DNA of 64,000 nt from Paracoccus jeotgali (lineage in GTDB: Bacteria; Pseudomonadota; Alphaproteobacteria; Rhodobacterales; Rhodobacteraceae): positions 972,501 to 1,036,500 of the forward strand of contig NZ_CP025583.1 in assembly GCF_002865605.1 (NCBI RefSeq), written 5' to 3'. The notes under the pieces were generated by a model. That model had not been told where the DNA came from. It did no database searches and was given only the letters and a program-made list of their open reading frames with translations. Numbering within the stretch: the stretch's first letter is position 1; each line of letters starts with the position of its first letter. Positions 28,646-35,624 of the stretch are shown in pieces. The position numbers and the translations under genes are program-made.

Positions 28646-29623
28646 ATGCGGCGTATGTTTCTGATCTGGGTTCTGTGTCTCTGGCCGTCGCTCGGTGCGG
28701 CCGCAGAGACCGGGCCTCGCGAGCTGCCCCCCGGCGATTTCAGCGGCGCGCAATATATCGACAGTCAGGGCTGCGTCTACCTGCGCGATGGGCGGCATTG
28801 GCGGCCGCGGCTCGATCCGGACGGGCAGCCGGTCTGCGGTTTTCCGCCCAGCCGCTCGGCGTGGCACTCACCGGATGGGGGCGCTGGGGCTGATGGTCTG
28901 GCAGGGATTGAGCAGGATCTTGCCGTCAGTATCGCAACCGCCGGGCTGATGACGCCGCCGCAGAGGCGCGCAGACGCTTTGCCTGTTGCGACGTCAGCAG
29001 GCGCGAGCAGCGGCGATGGGATCGCCGAGCAGCTCGCGCGGGCGTCCGTTAGCAGCGGAGTGTTGGCGCGGCAGGCGGCCCGGCCGAATGTGATGAGCAG
29101 CCGGCTCTGCGAGTTGCTAGGCCTCTCGGACGCGTCGCCGACCGGGGCGACCTCGTTCGCCGATCCGACTGGCGGTCATTGCTCCGGCGGCGGCGTTCCG
29201 TTGACGCTGCAAAAGCGTGCTCAGGCGTCGACGGCAGCGGCGGCGCCGCGTGCTGAAAGCGGCGCGAAGGCGGGCGATGGCCTGCCTCCGAAGCCCCGGT
29301 CCGCACGGGCTGATGCGGAGGCGTCGCCGGCTCAGCGCCAGCAGCTCGCCGCCAAAACTTCACGGCAGAGCCGCCCGCCTACGCCGCGACCCGAAATTCC
29401 GGCGACTGCGCGATATGTGCAGGTCGGAAGTTTCAACGAAGACGGGGTCGCGGCGGCCATCGCGGCCTTGCACCGCCTCGGTTATCCCGTCGCGCGGCAG
29501 GTGAAGGAGGGAGAATCCGGTCGCAGGATCGTCCTCGCCGGACCGTTCGCAAGCCGCGAGCGTCTGATCTCTGCACTCGACCGCCTGCGGCGGGCGGGGT
29601 TTGGCCAGGCGATGGCGCGGTAG
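28646..29623 (+). CDS. Secreted SPOR-domain protein
   Basis: 325 residues. An N-terminal signal peptide (MRRMFLIWVLCLWPSLGAAAE) precedes a short conserved-looking block DFSGAQYIDSQGCVYLRDGRHWRPRLD. A long low-complexity Ala/Ser/Pro linker follows, then a C-terminal SPOR fold from about 245 (ARYVQVGSFNEDGVAAAIAALHRLGYPVARQ, GRRIVLAGPFASRERLISALDRLRRAGF). SPOR domains bind denuded septal glycan strands, so a periplasmic, division-site role is likely. Codon use in the linker is slightly less biased than in the neighbours. Convergent with the TonB-like gene. Confidence 0.85.
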   Translation: MRRMFLIWVLCLWPSLGAAAETGPRELPPGDFSGAQYIDSQGCVYLRDGRHWRPRLDPDGQPVCGFPPSRSAWHSPDGGAGADGLAGIEQDLAVSIATAGLMTPPQRRADALPVATSAGASSGDGIAEQLARASVSSGVLARQAARPNVMSSRLCELLGLSDASPTGATSFADPTGGHCSGGGVPLTLQKRAQASTAAAAPRAESGAKAGDGLPPKPRSARADAEASPAQRQQLAAKTSRQSRPPTPRPEIPATARYVQVGSFNEDGVAAAIAALHRLGYPVARQVKEGESGRRIVLAGPFASRERLISALDRLRRAGFGQAMAR

Positions 29624-29690: not shown

Positions 29691-30749
29691 TCAGCGCAGA
29701 TCGACGCTGGCGATGCCGGTCAGCAGAAGGCTCTGATCGACGTCGGCGGCGAGGGCGTCGAAGAACGCGCTCGCCTCGTCGCCCGCGTGTTCCCTTACGC
29801 TGTCCAGTCGCTGTGGAGTTGCCAAGGTGATGAGGAGTTGTCTCGTATCACGCGGCTCGCGGAGGCGCGCCAGCGGCACGTCGAAGCTGATTGCCCCGGT
29901 TGACCGGGTGAGAAAACCGCTGAGATCATGGACGATGCCGTTTTCATCGATCAGCAGCAGGTTTGCGAACAAACCGCCTGCTTCGGCGATCTGACCCTGC
30001 AGCGTATCTCCCGACGCAATCGCCGGCGACGCCAGCGTCAGCCCCAAAGCCGGCAGCGGATAGTCCGGTCCTTGCCTCAGAAACGCCACCGCCGGGCACT
30101 GTCGCGGGTCGAGCAGCAGTGTCTCGGTCGCAGCGAGACCCTCGATGCCGTCGACGAGGCGGTCTCGCACGGCGGACAGTCCTCGATCATTCGCCGAGAG
30201 CAGGCTGATCGTCAGTTCATCCTCATTCCGCAGAAGCGGCAGCGCCAGCAGGCAGGGATCGGAGGTCTCGGCGCGGATGCGTGTGACAAGTTCGTTGAAG
30301 TCCTGGTTGTCTCGGGGCGGGTTAAGAGAGGACGTCGGGCGAGAGAGGGTGCTTTCGTCAAAGCCGTCGCTTGATGAGTTGACCGCCTCGGTTCCCCCCT
30401 TGGCGTTGCTGTCCGAGGGCGCTGCTTCTGCGATCGGTAGAGTTCCGGCGGGCGTCAGAGGAAGTTCGTAAGGAACCGGCAGTAGCGCCTCGCCAGCGAC
30501 CGGACTGGATGGCGCGTCGGGCGCGCCAACGACGCTGGTCAGCGTCTGGGCTGGGACCGCGGGAAGCTCGACTATTTCTGGTGCCGGGACCGTCGCGATC
30601 TCGATCAGCGGCGGGTGCGTCAAATGCGTCGGCTCCGTCCGCCACGGCCCCGGTTGCCAGACCAGCCACGCCAGCCCCAGCCCGTGGATCAGCAGCGACC
30701 CGAGGGTCGCGCCGATCCAGCCTTTAGCTTCGGGCCGTGCCCCGATCAT
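29691..30749 (-). CDS. TonB-like energy-transducer protein with kinase-related periplasmic domain
   Basis: 352 residues. One N-terminal membrane helix (12-31, GSLLIHGLGLAWLVWQ) carries the SxxxH pair (S18, H22) that in TonB contacts ExbBD. A Pro/Glu/Val-rich linker (45-110) follows. There is no recognisable TonB C-terminal fold. Instead residues 150-352 form a domain with PCLLA at C166, QCPA at C218, LLLIDENGIVHDLSG and LLITLATPQ, which resembles the periplasmic part of the kinase encoded upstream. The ATG follows GGAGGAG and overlaps the preceding exbD by 4 bases. Last gene of the ExbBD operon. Confidence 0.8.
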   Translation of the reverse strand: MIGARPEAKGWIGATLGSLLIHGLGLAWLVWQPGPWRTEPTHLTHPPLIEIATVPAPEIVELPAVPAQTLTSVVGAPDAPSSPVAGEALLPVPYELPLTPAGTLPIAEAAPSDSNAKGGTEAVNSSSDGFDESTLSRPTSSLNPPRDNQDFNELVTRIRAETSDPCLLALPLLRNEDELTISLLSANDRGLSAVRDRLVDGIEGLAATETLLLDPRQCPAVAFLRQGPDYPLPALGLTLASPAIASGDTLQGQIAEAGGLFANLLLIDENGIVHDLSGFLTRSTGAISFDVPLARLREPRDTRQLLITLATPQRLDSVREHAGDEASAFFDALAADVDQSLLLTGIASVDLR

Positions 30750-31147
30750 GGCTCCTCCGGCTGGTTCAGCGTGACCAGTTGCAGCGTCAGCCCGCTCAGC
30801 GCGGGGTGGGCCAGGGCCTCGACCAGCAGCCGCGCCGGAGCGGCGCGGTCGATCATCACGTGCAGGACCGGTTCGCCGTCGGGCGGCAGCGCCGATGGCA
30901 GCAGTTCCGGCGAGACCTCGCGTCCGTCGAGACGCCATTGCCCGTCAGCCTCGATCTGCAGGACCGGATGCGGCAGGTTCGACAGCGGCAGGCGCGACGT
31001 GGTCGCCAGTCGCGTGTCGCTTTCGGGCGGCGGCAACTGCCCGACCAGCATGAAGAAGAACAGCAGCAGCAGCACGATGTTCACGATCGGCAGCGAGTGA
31101 TCGAGGCGTCCGCGCTCGCGCCGGCGGCGGGGCAGGTCGAGCGCCAC
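30746..31147 (-). CDS. ExbD/TolR family protein with Asn in place of the membrane Asp
   Basis: 133 residues with a basic cytoplasmic N-terminus, one membrane helix (20-36) and a periplasmic domain. In ExbD/TolR the helix begins with P-x-x-D. Here it reads LPIVNIVLLLLFFFM, so N23 stands where the proton-carrying Asp should be. The GTG start lies one base after the stop of the other exbD, and the end overlaps the TonB-like gene (ATGA). It would probably form a heterodimer with the Asp-containing ExbD from the neighbouring gene. Confidence 0.85.
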   Translation of the reverse strand: MALDLPRRRRERGRLDHSLPIVNIVLLLLFFFMLVGQLPPPESDTRLATTSRLPLSNLPHPVLQIEADGQWRLDGREVSPELLPSALPPDGEPVLHVMIDRAAPARLLVEALAHPALSGLTLQLVTLNQPEEP

Positions 31148-31148
31148 G

Positions 31149-31604
31149 CTAGAACCCGCCCTCGGCCACGGTGACCGTCACGCCGTCCAGTGCGGCGAGC
31201 GTCTGCAGCACCGTCACCAGTCGCTGGACCGGCACCTCGTCCCGCAGCAGGATCAGCACATCCGTCGTCCCCTGCGCCTCCAGCGCCCCGGCAAGCGCAT
31301 CAAGCCGGTCGGGCGCAAAACGCTGCCCGCTGACCTGAATCGCGCCGTTTTCCTGCAGCGTCCAGATGACCGTGCGGCGAATGTCGGTGCCCTGCCGATC
31401 CTGCGTGCCCGCCGTCGCCCCGATCACGCCGCCGGCGCGGATGTCGAGCAGCGAATATGAGGTGATGTGAGAGGTCAGCATGAAGAAGATCAGCAGCTGG
31501 AACATGACATCGGCCAGCGGCGTCATCGAGAAGCGATAGCGCCGGTTGCGCCGCGGCAGCACGATGCCCGGACGCCGCGCGTGGGCCGAAACCGGCGCCG
31601 CCAC
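31149..31604 (-). CDS. exbD: ExbD/TolR family protein (Asp-containing)
   Basis: 151 residues from a GTG 2 bases after the exbB stop. N-terminal RRNRRYRFSMTPLADVMFQLLIFFM: the motif TPLAD with D32 matches the essential proton-path Asp of E. coli ExbD (D25). The periplasmic domain continues to LAALDGVTVTVAEGGF. The frame is open far upstream inside exbB, but that part is not ExbD-like. The only nearby ATG would begin within the helix, so GTG is chosen. Confidence 0.88.
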   Translation of the reverse strand: MAAPVSAHARRPGIVLPRRNRRYRFSMTPLADVMFQLLIFFMLTSHITSYSLLDIRAGGVIGATAGTQDRQGTDIRRTVIWTLQENGAIQVSGQRFAPDRLDALAGALEAQGTTDVLILLRDEVPVQRLVTVLQTLAALDGVTVTVAEGGF

Positions 31605-31606
31605 GC

Positions 31607-32257
31607 TCAGCCCCGCGTCTGGTCGACGCGCCCGTGGATCGCGGCCGAGATCACCATCTCGATCGTCTGGCGCTCGTCGTCGATACGCCCTTCGAGCCAG
31701 GCGGCGATGAAATAGGCGACAAGCGCGATGGCCAGCCCCGCCGCCGTCGTGGTCAGCGCCGTCCAGATGCCCGATGCCAGCAGGCGCGGATCGGCGGCGG
31801 CCTGACTGGCGGCGAGGTTGCCGAAGGCGTCGATCATGCCCACCACCGTCCCCAACAGCCCCAGCATCGGCGCCATCTGCACCACCGCCTCGAGCAGGCG
31901 CATGCGGCTGCCCATCCGCGTCAGCTCGATCAGCGCCGCCTGCCGGGCCAGTTCTTCGCCGTAGAACGGCTGCTCGGGGCGGGCGCGCAGACCGGACATC
32001 ACCGCCGCCAGCACCCGCGCCAGCACAGAGGGATCGGCGGCCGCAGCGCTTTGCGCCACGTCGGGGCGGCCGCTCAGCCAGTCGTTCAGGATCGCCTCGG
32101 CCTGCCGGTTCCGGCCCAGACCCATGCGGCGAAACTGCGCGAGCTTGAAGATTGCGACCGTCACCGTCAGCACCGACAGCCCGGCCAGCGCGGCAAAGAT
32201 CAGCACCGTCGGCCAGGGCAGCGCGGCCATACCGCTCAGATCGAGGCCGCCGCTCAC
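31607..32257 (-). CDS. exbB: ExbB/TolQ/MotA-type proton channel protein
   Basis: 216 residues from a GTG overlapping the upstream stop (GTGA). Three membrane segments: near 15-35 (LPWPTVLIFAALAGLSVLTVTVA), near 120-140 (QMAPMLGLLGTVVGMIDAF) and near 160-185 (ALTTTAAGLAIALVAYFIAAW). The GLLGTVVGM and TALTTTAAGLAIA stretches are the conserved pore-lining regions. The cytoplasmic loop and tail (EGRIDDERQTIEM) are typical. With the two ExbD proteins it should form an inner-membrane proton-driven motor. Confidence 0.92.
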   Translation of the reverse strand: MSGGLDLSGMAALPWPTVLIFAALAGLSVLTVTVAIFKLAQFRRMGLGRNRQAEAILNDWLSGRPDVAQSAAAADPSVLARVLAAVMSGLRARPEQPFYGEELARQAALIELTRMGSRMRLLEAVVQMAPMLGLLGTVVGMIDAFGNLAASQAAADPRLLASGIWTALTTTAAGLAIALVAYFIAAWLEGRIDDERQTIEMVISAAIHGRVDQTRG

Positions 32258-32754
32258 AATCCGAACTCGATGCCGCTGCGGTTGCGGGTCGCGAGGCCGC
32301 CGAGGCAGTCGTCGCGGCGGTCGCTGCCATCCTCGGCGCGGCACTCGGCCACGTCGTTGACGACGATGCGGCCGATGCGGCTGCAGTCGGTGCCGGGGAT
32401 GTCGAACAGCGCGACCTTGGTCTTGCCAGCCATAAGGGCGCCGAAATCCAGCACCGGCAGCGCGGTCACCGCGCCCTTATCGTCAAAAATCGCGATCTGC
32501 CATGCGGCGCGCGAGAGGGCCTGCGGCAGGTGGTTGACGGCCACCACGGTCAGACGGCAGCTGTCGGGGTCGGCACGTGCGATCTCGTTCAGCTCCAGCA
32601 CCAGACCGGGCGCGGCGGCAGGGACGCCGGGCGCCATGTCCTGCGCGGCGAGCGGGTTTGCCAGCAGGGCCGCCACAAGCCCCGCCAAGAGACGGTTGCG
32701 ACGCGGGTGGTCGGTCGCTGGTCCAGTGGTGGCTGTCTCGGTGGCGGGGGTCAT
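32254..32754 (-). CDS. Small exported protein of the kinase/ExbBD locus
   Basis: 166 residues from MTPATETATTGP. An N-terminal hydrophobic stretch preceded by PRRNR (LLAGLVAALLANPLAAQD) looks like a signal peptide cleaved after AAQ or nearby. The mature part has a beta-rich pattern with four cysteines (DSCRLTVVAVNH, GTDCSRIGRIVV, VAECRAEDG, RDDCLGG). No family is recognised. It couples to exbB by GTGA overlap and lies 112 bases after the kinase gene. A periplasmic partner of the kinase or the TonB-like protein is a reasonable guess. Confidence 0.75.
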   Translation of the reverse strand: MTPATETATTGPATDHPRRNRLLAGLVAALLANPLAAQDMAPGVPAAAPGLVLELNEIARADPDSCRLTVVAVNHLPQALSRAAWQIAIFDDKGAVTALPVLDFGALMAGKTKVALFDIPGTDCSRIGRIVVNDVAECRAEDGSDRRDDCLGGLATRNRSGIEFGL

Positions 32755-32866
32755 TTGCGGCTCCGGAAAGGGGGCGTTCGTGGCCAGAATGGCGGAAATC
32801 AGGCGGTTATCAACCTTAATGCGAGTGGGTCTGTGGTTGCGGCAGAAGGTGTGGCGGGCCGACCCG

Positions 32867-34867
32867 TCAGGGCGTCGGTTCAGGCGCAGCGGCATCGATC
32901 TGAACCGGGACAAGCGTCGCCGCGGCGTTCTGCGCGGCGGGCATCACCTCCTCCAGCAGCGCGGGCATCAGGCGCTCGGCAGAGGCAGCGGTGGGTGCGG
33001 CGGCGAGGGTCAGGGGCGGGGCCTCGGTCGCCAGCGCCAGCAGCAGCCATACGCCCTGATCGGCGTCCTCGGTGGGCAGGTTGATGGCGGCCTGGGCGGT
33101 GCGCACCCCCTGCGGATCGGTCAGCGATTGCGCTGTCAGGTCATAGGCCGACCCGTCCGGCGCGATCAGCGCCAGCCACAGATTGCGGGCCGACAAGCCG
33201 GGCACGCTGAGATTCAGCGCGAACCCGTCAGGCGTGGCCATGGCCTGCGCGCTCAGTTCCGGGGGTGTCGCGGCGCGACCGGCAAGCTGCGAAACCAGAT
33301 CCAGCACCGGGCATTGCGCGGGGCTGACCCGATACGCGGCGATGCTGGGGCGGGTCTGGAAGGCGGCCTCGAAGGGGTCGAGGATGCGGGCCGGCGGGAT
33401 GGGCGCGGGTGAAAAGACGGCAAGCGTCCCGGCCTGCGGCCCCGCCTCGACCCGTTGCGCAAGCGCGCAGGGGCCGAGGTCGAGTTCGGCGAGGAAGCCG
33501 TCGCGGGTGCGGGTGTCGCGGGCAGGCAGGGCGGTCGTGCCCGGTGGCGCTGCTTCCGCCGGCGGCGGGGGTGGCGGGATCGGGCGCAGCGTCATCCAGC
33601 CGAGGCCGGCAGCCGCGATCAGCACGACGCTTGCGGCCAGCAGGAAGGGGCCGCGCCCGGGGGATGCGGGGGGACCGGGCGCAGCGTCGGCTCCCGTCTC
33701 GACCGCCCCCGGCGCTTCGCCCGGCTCACCCGCTGCCACGCCTGCATCGCGCAGCACGGTCAGCGGCTTTGCGGCGCTGCTCGCCTCGGCCCCGGACTGC
33801 CATAGCGGCAGGCGGTAGCGCGCTGGGATCAGCATCGGGTCGTCCAGCATCTGGATCACCCGGCCCATATCGGCGGGCCGCGCCGCGGGGTCGGGCTCCA
33901 GCATGTGCTGCAGCAGCGGAAACAGCCGGTGCGAGACCCCGTCGAGCGGCGGGATCTGACGCCGCGCGGCCGAAGCGGTGGCCACCGAATCGCCCATCTC
34001 GATGGCCCGCCCCCGGATGATCGCGACCATCAGCAGCGCCAGCCCATAGATATCGGTGCGCGGGCCGATCAGCGCCGGATCATCGCCCAGTTGCTCGGGC
34101 GCGATATATTTGTATTTACCGGCAAAACGGCCATCGAGGCCATCGCCCAGCTCGGTCGAGCGGGCGATGCCGAAATCGATCAGCACGGCCTCTTCCACGC
34201 TGTCATGGCGCAGGATGACGTTGTCCGGCGACAGGTCGCGATGGGTCACCCCGCAGTCATGGGCGCGCGCCAACCCCTGCGCCAGCCGCCGCAGCAGCCG
34301 CCGCGCATCGTCGTCGGGCATCGGCACGCCGTCGCGCAGGCGGGCGCCCAGATGCGTGCCCTCGACGAATTCCATGATCAGGCAATAGCGGCCAAGCCCC
34401 TGATCCAGAACGAAGTTGTGATAGCTGACGATGGCCTCGTGGCGCAGCTGGACCAGCACCCGCGCCTCGCGGCGGAACATCTCGATGATGTCGCGGTCGC
34501 GGGCGAGTTCGGTCAGGATCACCTTGACCGCCACCGGATCGCCGGTGAACAGGTTGACGGCGCGATAGACCTCGCCCATGCCGCCGGTGCTGATCATCTC
34601 TTCGATGCGGTAGTTGTTGTTGATCAGCGTCCCCCGTTCGACAAGCCGGGCCCCCGGTGCGGCAAGGGGCGCGGCGAGTTCCGCCAGCACCGTCGGCTGC
34701 GCGGGCGGCAGGCCGAACTGCGTCAGCGGCGGGCGGGGCGGCTGCGTGTGACCGGCCAGTATCGTCTCGCCCAACCGGCCCGAGATGCGGGTGCGCGCGT
34801 CGGGTTCGGGAAAAGCCTGCGCGGCCGGGGGCAGGGTGGCGGGGCGGGGCCTGCGGTCGTCATCCAT
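32867..34867 (-). CDS. Transmembrane Ser/Thr protein kinase with periplasmic domain
   Basis: 666 residues. A Pro-rich N-terminus precedes a Hanks-type kinase domain at about 86-350: G-loop STGGMGEVY (93-101), K115 in VAVKV, HRDLSPDN (209-216), DFGIA (231-235), APEQL. All catalytic residues are present. One membrane helix (407-426) leads to a Pro-rich stretch and a periplasmic region with C467 (PCALA) and C519 (QCP), then WLALIAPDGSAYDLTA and GVWLLLALATEAPP. That region resembles the C-terminal half of the TonB-like protein. The ATG overlaps the PP2C stop by 8 bases. Confidence 0.93.
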   Translation of the reverse strand: MDDDRRPRPATLPPAAQAFPEPDARTRISGRLGETILAGHTQPPRPPLTQFGLPPAQPTVLAELAAPLAAPGARLVERGTLINNNYRIEEMISTGGMGEVYRAVNLFTGDPVAVKVILTELARDRDIIEMFRREARVLVQLRHEAIVSYHNFVLDQGLGRYCLIMEFVEGTHLGARLRDGVPMPDDDARRLLRRLAQGLARAHDCGVTHRDLSPDNVILRHDSVEEAVLIDFGIARSTELGDGLDGRFAGKYKYIAPEQLGDDPALIGPRTDIYGLALLMVAIIRGRAIEMGDSVATASAARRQIPPLDGVSHRLFPLLQHMLEPDPAARPADMGRVIQMLDDPMLIPARYRLPLWQSGAEASSAAKPLTVLRDAGVAAGEPGEAPGAVETGADAAPGPPASPGRGPFLLAASVVLIAAAGLGWMTLRPIPPPPPPAEAAPPGTTALPARDTRTRDGFLAELDLGPCALAQRVEAGPQAGTLAVFSPAPIPPARILDPFEAAFQTRPSIAAYRVSPAQCPVLDLVSQLAGRAATPPELSAQAMATPDGFALNLSVPGLSARNLWLALIAPDGSAYDLTAQSLTDPQGVRTAQAAINLPTEDADQGVWLLLALATEAPPLTLAAAPTAASAERLMPALLEEVMPAAQNAAATLVPVQIDAAAPEPTP

Positions 34868-35624
34868 GGTCCGCCCCCTCGGGCGCGCGCTGCGCGCAAT
34901 CGAGCACCAGCACCGTCACGTTATCCACGGCCCCCCGCAGCAGGGTCAGCGCCACCAGCCGGTCGACGCTGCCGCCGGGGTCGCGGCCCGAATCCAGCAC
35001 CTCGGCGATCTCGTCATCGGCCAGATGCTCGGTCAGCCCGTCCGAGCAGATGAGAAAGCGGTCGCCCGGCTGCACGGTGCTGCCGGAAAATTCCGGCGCC
35101 AGATTCGGGCCGATGCCCACGGCGCGGGTCAGCACGTTGCGGCGCGGGAACTCGCGCGCCTGTGCAGGCGTCAGGTCGCCGCGTTCGACCATGGCCGCGA
35201 CCTCGCTGTGATCGCGGGTCATGCGGCGCATCTGCCCCGCGCGCAGGCGATAGATGCGGCTGTCGCCGACCCAGGCGCAGGTCAGCTCGGTCCCGAAGAC
35301 CATCAGCGCGGCGATGGTGCTGCCGGCCATGTCAAGGTCATGTTCCGCGATATGGGACCTGATCCGCAGATGCGCGCGATGCAGCCTTTCGCTGACCCGC
35401 CGTCGCTGATCGCTGGCCGAGACCGGCATCCCCAGCGCCGTCATCTCGCTGGTCACGATCTCGCTGGCGACATCGCCCGCCGCATAGCCGCCCATGCCGT
35501 CGGCCACCACCCACAGCCCGTATTGGGGCAGGCAGGCGTGGCTGTCCTCGTTCTGGCGGCGGACGCAGCCCTGATGGCTGCGGGCGGCGGCGCGATAGAC
35601 CAGGGCCTCGGCGGTGTCGGTCAT
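34860..35624 (-). CDS. PP2C-family Ser/Thr protein phosphatase
   Basis: 254 residues from MTDTAEALVYRA. PP2C metal motifs in order: RRQNEDS (D27), VVADGMGGYAAGDVAS (D42), SRIYRLRAGQM, ICSDGLTEHL and AVDNVTVLVL. Cytosolic, bacterial PppA/PrpC type. It should reverse phosphorylation by the kinase gene it overlaps. A 48-codon upstream extension of the frame shows no homology and is not used. First gene of the kinase-ExbBD operon. Confidence 0.93.
   Translation of the reverse strand: MTDTAEALVYRAAARSHQGCVRRQNEDSHACLPQYGLWVVADGMGGYAAGDVASEIVTSEMTALGMPVSASDQRRRVSERLHRAHLRIRSHIAEHDLDMAGSTIAALMVFGTELTCAWVGDSRIYRLRAGQMRRMTRDHSEVAAMVERGDLTPAQAREFPRRNVLTRAVGIGPNLAPEFSGSTVQPGDRFLICSDGLTEHLADDEIAEVLDSGRDPGGSVDRLVALTLLRGAVDNVTVLVLDCAQRAPEGADHG

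Follow-up and report, generated by a model that had tools for sequence, protein, structure and literature searches.

The locus described here is probably, though by no means certainly, what remains of a Rhodobacterales T6SS locus after loss of the secretion machine, namely its regulatory part and its envelope input, with an ExbBD/TonB-like unit providing the input of a PpkA-type kinase. It lies in a 64,000-nt stretch of the Paracoccus jeotgali genome (the window, to which all coordinates without a locus name refer). We regard it as a new variant in which a proton motor supplies the input to a PpkA/PppA-type pathway, here minus its T6SS. For the switching on of PpkA outside Pseudomonas and Serratia, the locus offers a concrete and genetically tractable candidate, the clue being a domain common to the kinase and the TonB-like protein.

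Gene content of the locus

The first-pass annotation had listed seven minus-strand genes with named domains. All of them were present, and five passed Pfam cut-offs. They encode a PP2C phosphatase, PppA-type by context (P0007, 34860-35624; PF00481 and PF13672 over cut-off, PP2C 51.5 bits), a transmembrane Ser/Thr kinase, PpkA-type by context (P0006, 32867-34867; Pkinase 126.4 bits), a small exported protein with a signal-like N-terminus by eye (P0005, 32254-32754), an ExbB-type proton-channel subunit (P0004, 31607-32257; MotA_ExbB 95.3 bits), two ExbD proteins, ExbD1 (31149-31604; ExbD 49.9 bits) and ExbD2 (30746-31147; ExbD 30.9 bits), and a TonB-like protein (P0001, 29691-30749) made up of a TM segment with SxxxH, a Pro-rich linker and a C-terminal domain. 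The small protein and the TonB-like protein were without any Pfam family match over cut-offs. Only three of the six junctions overlapped (by 8, 4 and 4 bases), not most of them as had been annotated; the coordinates give gaps of 112, 2 and 1 bases at the other three, and the widest gap, 112 bases, was as claimed. MotA/ExbB-family genes occurred at four places in the genome, this locus among them. A SPOR-domain protein encoded on the plus strand (28646-29623) faces the end of the TonB-like gene.

The unit exceeds these seven genes. An autotransporter (P0008, 35787-38894, minus strand; TIGR01414 over cut-off), which is a constant partner of the module, and a member of a caspase/peptidoglycan-binding-like family (P0009, 38992-40116, minus strand) are further members. 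All nine frames were open in the window, with catalytic residues intact. P0009 was assigned to its family by its C-terminal domain, and a caspase domain was not recognised in it: PF00656 was unmatched and the peptidoglycan-binding match was weak. The relative of P0009 in locus L042 has PF00656.

Kinase, phosphatase and their T6SS context in relatives

Relatives were represented by 64 loci, collected with one TonB-like alignment pattern and one genome per species, a set in which distant forms were possibly missed. All 64 belonged to Rhodobacterales according to titles and tree labels.

The kinase comprised a kinase domain (residues 86-332) and, from hydropathy, a probable TM segment at approximately 409-427, followed from approximately residue 452 by a C-terminal domain that the TM segment would place in the periplasm. 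The Lys, HRD and DFG residues of the kinase were invariant in 52 of 52 rows, and the metal-binding Asp/Gly motifs of the PP2C were invariant in 53 of 53 rows (window included in both). A Hanks kinase with a TM segment and a C-terminal domain, adjoining a PP2C, has the architecture of the PpkA/PppA pair. Pairs of this type are also encoded with TagF, TssM and other T6SS genes; the T6SS families searched for were unmatched in the window's genome, whereas a PP2C was found in 52 relatives and had TagF or TssM within 1.5 kb in 45 of them. It is because of these T6SS neighbours in relatives that we name the PP2C and the kinase a PppA/PpkA-type pair, by gene context; in the window the label denotes descent, not a working T6SS regulator.

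Profiles detected T6SS genes inside the fetched stretch in 51 of the 64 relatives, a count that leaves out four rows whose sole T6SS label, TssL, stood on a short OmpA-like protein. In L041 and L042, the genes beyond the PP2C were TagF, TssM (IcmF), TssL (DotU-OmpA) and TssK (VasE) by Pfam. The fullest order was autotransporter-TssK-TssL-TssM-TagF-PP2C-kinase, facing TonB-like-ExbD2-ExbD1-ExbB-small protein. Six T6SS-type loci, picked for a nearby autotransporter, showed the first half of this order, the autotransporter being inverted in one. The far side of the module carried caspase (PF00656) and M23 peptidase genes (L042:2454-6182) and a DUF1036 gene (L043:6084-6533), and all three were frequent neighbours of the module in relatives. 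Some of the 13 relatives without T6SS genes in the stretch were short or cut contigs. In five of the 13 (L060, L069, L076, L092 and L098) the autotransporter was directly beside the PP2C, as in the window.

Motor subunits and TonB-like anchor

The MotA_ExbB and ExbD families were matched over cut-off, and the membrane Asp was found in ExbD1 only. The ExbB membrane Thr residues 137, 170 and 171 were invariant in 64 of 64 rows, and the ExbD1 membrane Asp (residue 32) was kept in 64 of 64. The same site of ExbD2 (residue 23) was Asn in 62 of 63 readable rows (Ser in L046; L038 was unreadable), and both residues fell at Pfam profile position 15 when counted from the match starts. In Escherichia coli ExbD, the membrane Asp is the essential proton carrier. 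If ExbD1 and ExbD2 pair, the mixed pair would have one protonatable site, and nature would here provide an experiment on whether one such Asp is enough for an ExbD pair to function.

The SxxxH anchor reported for the TonB-like protein was present, as SLLIH inside its single strongly hydrophobic segment. Among 65 readable TonB-like anchors, 49 had SxxxH and 62 had a His within the segment. No TonB family matched the C-terminal domain of P0001 or of 11 aligned relatives, and the model obtained was of a sandwich type instead. Thus, the name "TonB-like" is apt for the anchor but not for the C-terminal domain, which had no TonB_C match. The small protein had four Cys residues that were invariant in 11 of 11 aligned sequences. 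An assignment to Zorya (ZorAB) was rejected: ExbB reached at most 20.2 bits with ZorA models and both ExbD proteins were without a PADLOC model match. In the PADLOC scan of the kinase, 25 of 33 families were among the matches listed.

A domain common to the kinase and the TonB-like protein

Homology was found between the C-terminal parts of the kinase (K domain, 32867-33514, minus strand) and of the TonB-like protein (T domain, 29691-30305, minus strand). When 11 TonB-like and 9 kinase C-terminal sequences were aligned with hhalign, the probability was 99.65% (E = 5e-25, 200 columns); it was 99.6% in a repeat with 56 and 39 sequences, whereas five further families from the locus scored no higher than 2.5%. 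The AlphaFold2 models (pLDDT 94.5 for the T domain and 92.1 for the K domain) had an identical order of helices and strands, with an alpha/beta lobe followed by an Ig-like beta-sandwich. Both domains have, at corresponding sites, a Cys and a Gln-Cys pair that are invariant or near-invariant. The likeness of the two C-terminal parts had first been noticed by eye; BLASTP of the TonB-like/kinase pair did not detect it. A kinase hit was present in 51 relatives; of these kinases, 48 were matched by the TonB-like profile and 49 by the kinase-domain profile. Those of L060 and L069, matched by neither, were cut by the end of the stretch. Comparison of the K and T domains with Pfam gave no convincing family, only stray hits. 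In one further genome (G004, L033:8142-10292), the same domain was fused to an apparent murein endopeptidase of the MepA type, to judge from its sequence; given this fusion, the domain may be in wider use as a module of the envelope.

Gene linkage in Rhodobacterales

ExbB, ExbD1 and ExbD2 accompanied the TonB-like gene in 63 of the 64 relatives, the exception (L066) being a contig end, and all five motor-side genes were found in 60. The small protein was present in 60 relatives, the PP2C in 52, the caspase/peptidoglycan-binding-like family in 52 and the kinase in 51. Three relatives had motor genes without a small-protein hit, and 13 had no kinase hit in the stretch, in some cases owing to a contig end. 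The co-occurrence of these genes was far beyond chance. The first-pass annotation had made its idea of one system depend on the genes staying together in related genomes and on a contact or shared fold between the kinase and the TonB-like protein. Linkage and shared fold were checked: the linkage (63 and 60 of 64) and the homology with matching models left the idea unrefuted, and together they support one co-inherited envelope system. The kinase was downstream of the TonB-like gene and faced it in 46 of 51 relatives; in the window and in Paracoccus aurantiacus (L037), the two genes run in one direction.

Co-inheritance was analyzed in 198 genomes of the family, that of the window included, and the module was called from a TonB-like hit with E < 1e-70, a cut of our own choosing. 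Such a hit was found in 11 of the 198 genomes, TssC in 44 and both in 10 (Fisher test, P = 1.1e-6, a value that overstates independence because the genomes are related). The sole genome with the module and without TssC was that of the window. TonB-like hits of any strength were found in 15 genomes, the additional four being kinases, a MepA-like protein or a fragment. The autotransporter family was found in 12 of the 198 genomes, and 10 of these were among the 11 with the module (P = 3.5e-14, also overstated by kinship). The two autotransporter-only genomes (G121 and G131) both had a PP2C and a K-domain kinase, with no TonB-like hit. In G149 the kinase side was approximately 140 kb from the ExbBD/motor side. 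This separation and the composition of G121 and G131 indicate that the kinase and the motor are separable. G056 had the motor and the autotransporter, with no kinase hit. In G131 (L034:7356-19841), the autotransporter, PP2C and K-domain kinase face a second PP2C-TagF-TssM-TssL set, and no TonB-like module was found.

Comparison with known systems and proposed mechanism

In the cited parts of two papers (PMC6082577; PMC10482370), the described PpkA inputs are lineage-specific: TagQRST, restricted to Pseudomonas, and RtkS in Serratia, where it binds the periplasmic domain of PpkA. The cited part of a review has the action of Agrobacterium PpkA promoted by an unknown protein (PMC10482370). The envelope part acts upstream of the kinase in the PpkA/PppA pathways described in the cited part of PMC6082577.

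Like the TagQRST-PpkA-PppA-Fha pathway of P. aeruginosa, the locus has a membrane Ser/Thr kinase with a periplasmic domain, a PP2C and an envelope unit, with TagF and TssM as neighbours (here in relatives). It differs in its envelope unit, which is ExbB/ExbD/ExbD/TonB-like, apparently in place of TagQR with the ABC-transporter-like TagST (ABC-transporter families had no match among ten window proteins scanned), in an arm that bears a relative of the kinase periplasmic domain, and in that FHA and the T6SS were unmatched in this genome. With RtkS-PpkA of Serratia marcescens it shares a small exported cysteine-bearing protein near the kinase and phosphatase, the two being likened by description, not by sequence. 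RtkS needs DsbA according to the cited part of PMC6082577, and the cited parts of the literature mention no ExbBD unit for RtkS-PpkA, whereas the locus has one. ExbB and ExbD families, a membrane Asp (in ExbD1), the Thr residues and SxxxH are common to the locus and the ExbB-ExbD-TonB and TolQ-TolR-TolA systems; unlike these, it has no recognisable TonB C-terminal domain, is linked to a kinase and has two ExbD paralogues, one of them without the Asp. The Agrobacterium tumefaciens PpkA is likewise alphaproteobacterial; its target there is TssL (PMC3953482, in the part cited), whereas TssL (DotU) was unmatched in the genome of the window.

The best reading of these comparisons would make the ExbBD/TonB-like unit the counterpart of TagQRST in Pseudomonas and RtkS in Serratia. 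Since the module stands in the position expected of a lineage-specific input, and since its arm bears a domain related to the periplasmic one of the kinase, we place the motor upstream of the kinase. The direction of signalling, the binding of partners and the target are what we infer from this placement. The complex of ExbB, ExbD1 and ExbD2, driven by the proton gradient, would move or load the TonB-like arm, which carries the T domain, related to the periplasmic K domain of the kinase. These two domains would most likely bind a common partner, or each other; candidates for a common partner are the cysteine-rich small protein, the autotransporter and the peptidoglycan-binding caspase-family protein. 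Handover of the partner driven by the motor, or pairing of the arm with the kinase, would then switch the kinase on or off. The output would be T6SS assembly where the T6SS is intact, and another target, possibly linked to the autotransporter, in the genome of the window, where TssC, TssK, TssL, TssM and FHA are unmatched. A bolder form of this model, which we put forward only tentatively, is a portable, proton-powered trans-envelope device in which a TonB-like arm, driven by an asymmetric motor of ExbB, ExbD1 (Asp) and ExbD2 (Asn), bears a copy of the PpkA sensor domain, as decoy or as partner, and so couples the surface autotransporter to the cytoplasmic Ser/Thr kinase; it would trigger the T6SS where one is present and serve another output where it is absent.

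The opposite direction, in which the kinase and phosphatase tune an ExbBD-TonB-like motor doing mechanical work on the outer membrane or the autotransporter, appears unlikely. The retained ExbBD residues and SxxxH anchor suit such a motor, as does the autotransporter, which is a very constant partner; however, the TonB-like protein matches the kinase periplasmic domain instead of having a recognisable TonB C-terminal domain, and the upstream position of the envelope part in the PpkA pathways of PMC6082577 (cited part) makes it likelier that the motor feeds the kinase than that the kinase regulates the motor. For the same reason, and because the kinase pair is of the T6SS PpkA/PppA type by context, the stand-alone "phosphorylation-controlled motor" of the first reading was not upheld.

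We consider it quite improbable that the ExbBD-TonB-like unit serves the T6SS as an accessory, mechanical or acting on the cell wall, that, with the neighbouring M23 peptidase and the peptidoglycan-binding caspase, opens the wall for the secretion channel, the kinase and TonB-like domains binding one site common to both, on the wall or the T6SS. In many relatives the module does adjoin genes for the M23 peptidase, the caspase/peptidoglycan-binding family and DUF1036, and the apparent MepA-like protein of G004 bears the same domain; nevertheless, the module is kept in the genome of the window, which gave no T6SS match, and at loci lacking this T6SS block.

Lack of T6SS matches and persistence of the module

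At the sensitivity of family searches, IcmF_C, VipB, IcmF-related, VasE, DotU and FHA had no match in the genome of the window, which is listed as 100% complete. Each of these searches gave a signal in the control E. coli; the IcmF_C signal was weak even in a relative, so the other families carry the weight of the absence. The genome keeps the module and the autotransporter despite the lack of a T6SS match. Whole-genome searches for TssC at 20 loci (mostly picked for non-obvious adjacent T6SS genes, plus two positive checks) were positive in 18 and negative in L069 (a MAG) and L070 (Rhodobacter viridis). TssC was present elsewhere in four of five further relatives without the block (L060, L076, L092 and L098, not L069). 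The genome of the window was the only complete case here with the autotransporter-PP2C arrangement and no T6SS match.

ExbB, ExbD1 and TonB-like sequences were placed in a tree of 65 rows by a quick method. Loci in which the autotransporter adjoins the PP2C occupied three places in it: the window, L060/L069, and a group with L032, L076, L092 and L098. The tree gave a count of four changes, L099 among them; the contig of L099 stops before its arrangement could be judged. The window was sister to P. aurantiacus (support 100), which keeps TssM at that position, and its branch was longer than that of its sister (0.43 vs. 0.13).

Selection on the module was estimated by simple NG86, with some dS values high. 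The dN/dS of module genes was 0.20-0.47 in L060/L069 (both without a T6SS block in the stretch), 0.08-0.34 in L076/L098 (also without the block), 0.18-0.36 in the window/P. aurantiacus and 0.16-0.33 in R. aestuarii/R. viridis; T6SS-linked pairs gave 0.04-0.12 (L075/L077) and 0.04-0.29 (L079/L081). Thus, selection on the module persists, and it may be weaker without the T6SS. The tendency to higher dN/dS where the block is absent may count against retention of the module as an input after loss of the secretion machine. That the module is a functionless relic of the lost T6SS, as the unmatched T6SS core and FHA, the longer branch, the unrecognised caspase domain and the raised dN/dS might suggest, is very unlikely, given nine open frames with intact catalytic residues, close full-length relatives (a kinase of 668 aa with 93% identity in the periplasmic region and TonB-like proteins of 352 aa with 86-89% identity to that of the window), dN/dS below 0.5 even in L060/L069, and an arrangement that recurs in separate lineages. 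On the retained-input reading, it seems that the checkpoint of a secretion system can survive after the system itself has gone.

The direction of change was shown in one lineage by the decaying T6SS of R. viridis (L070:13378-20572), in which the PP2C is followed by TagF fragments, one DotU+IcmF frame, a shortened TssK and then the autotransporter. The dN/dS of the remaining TssM and TssK parts was low (0.14 and 0.09, respectively), which indicates that this decay is probably recent.
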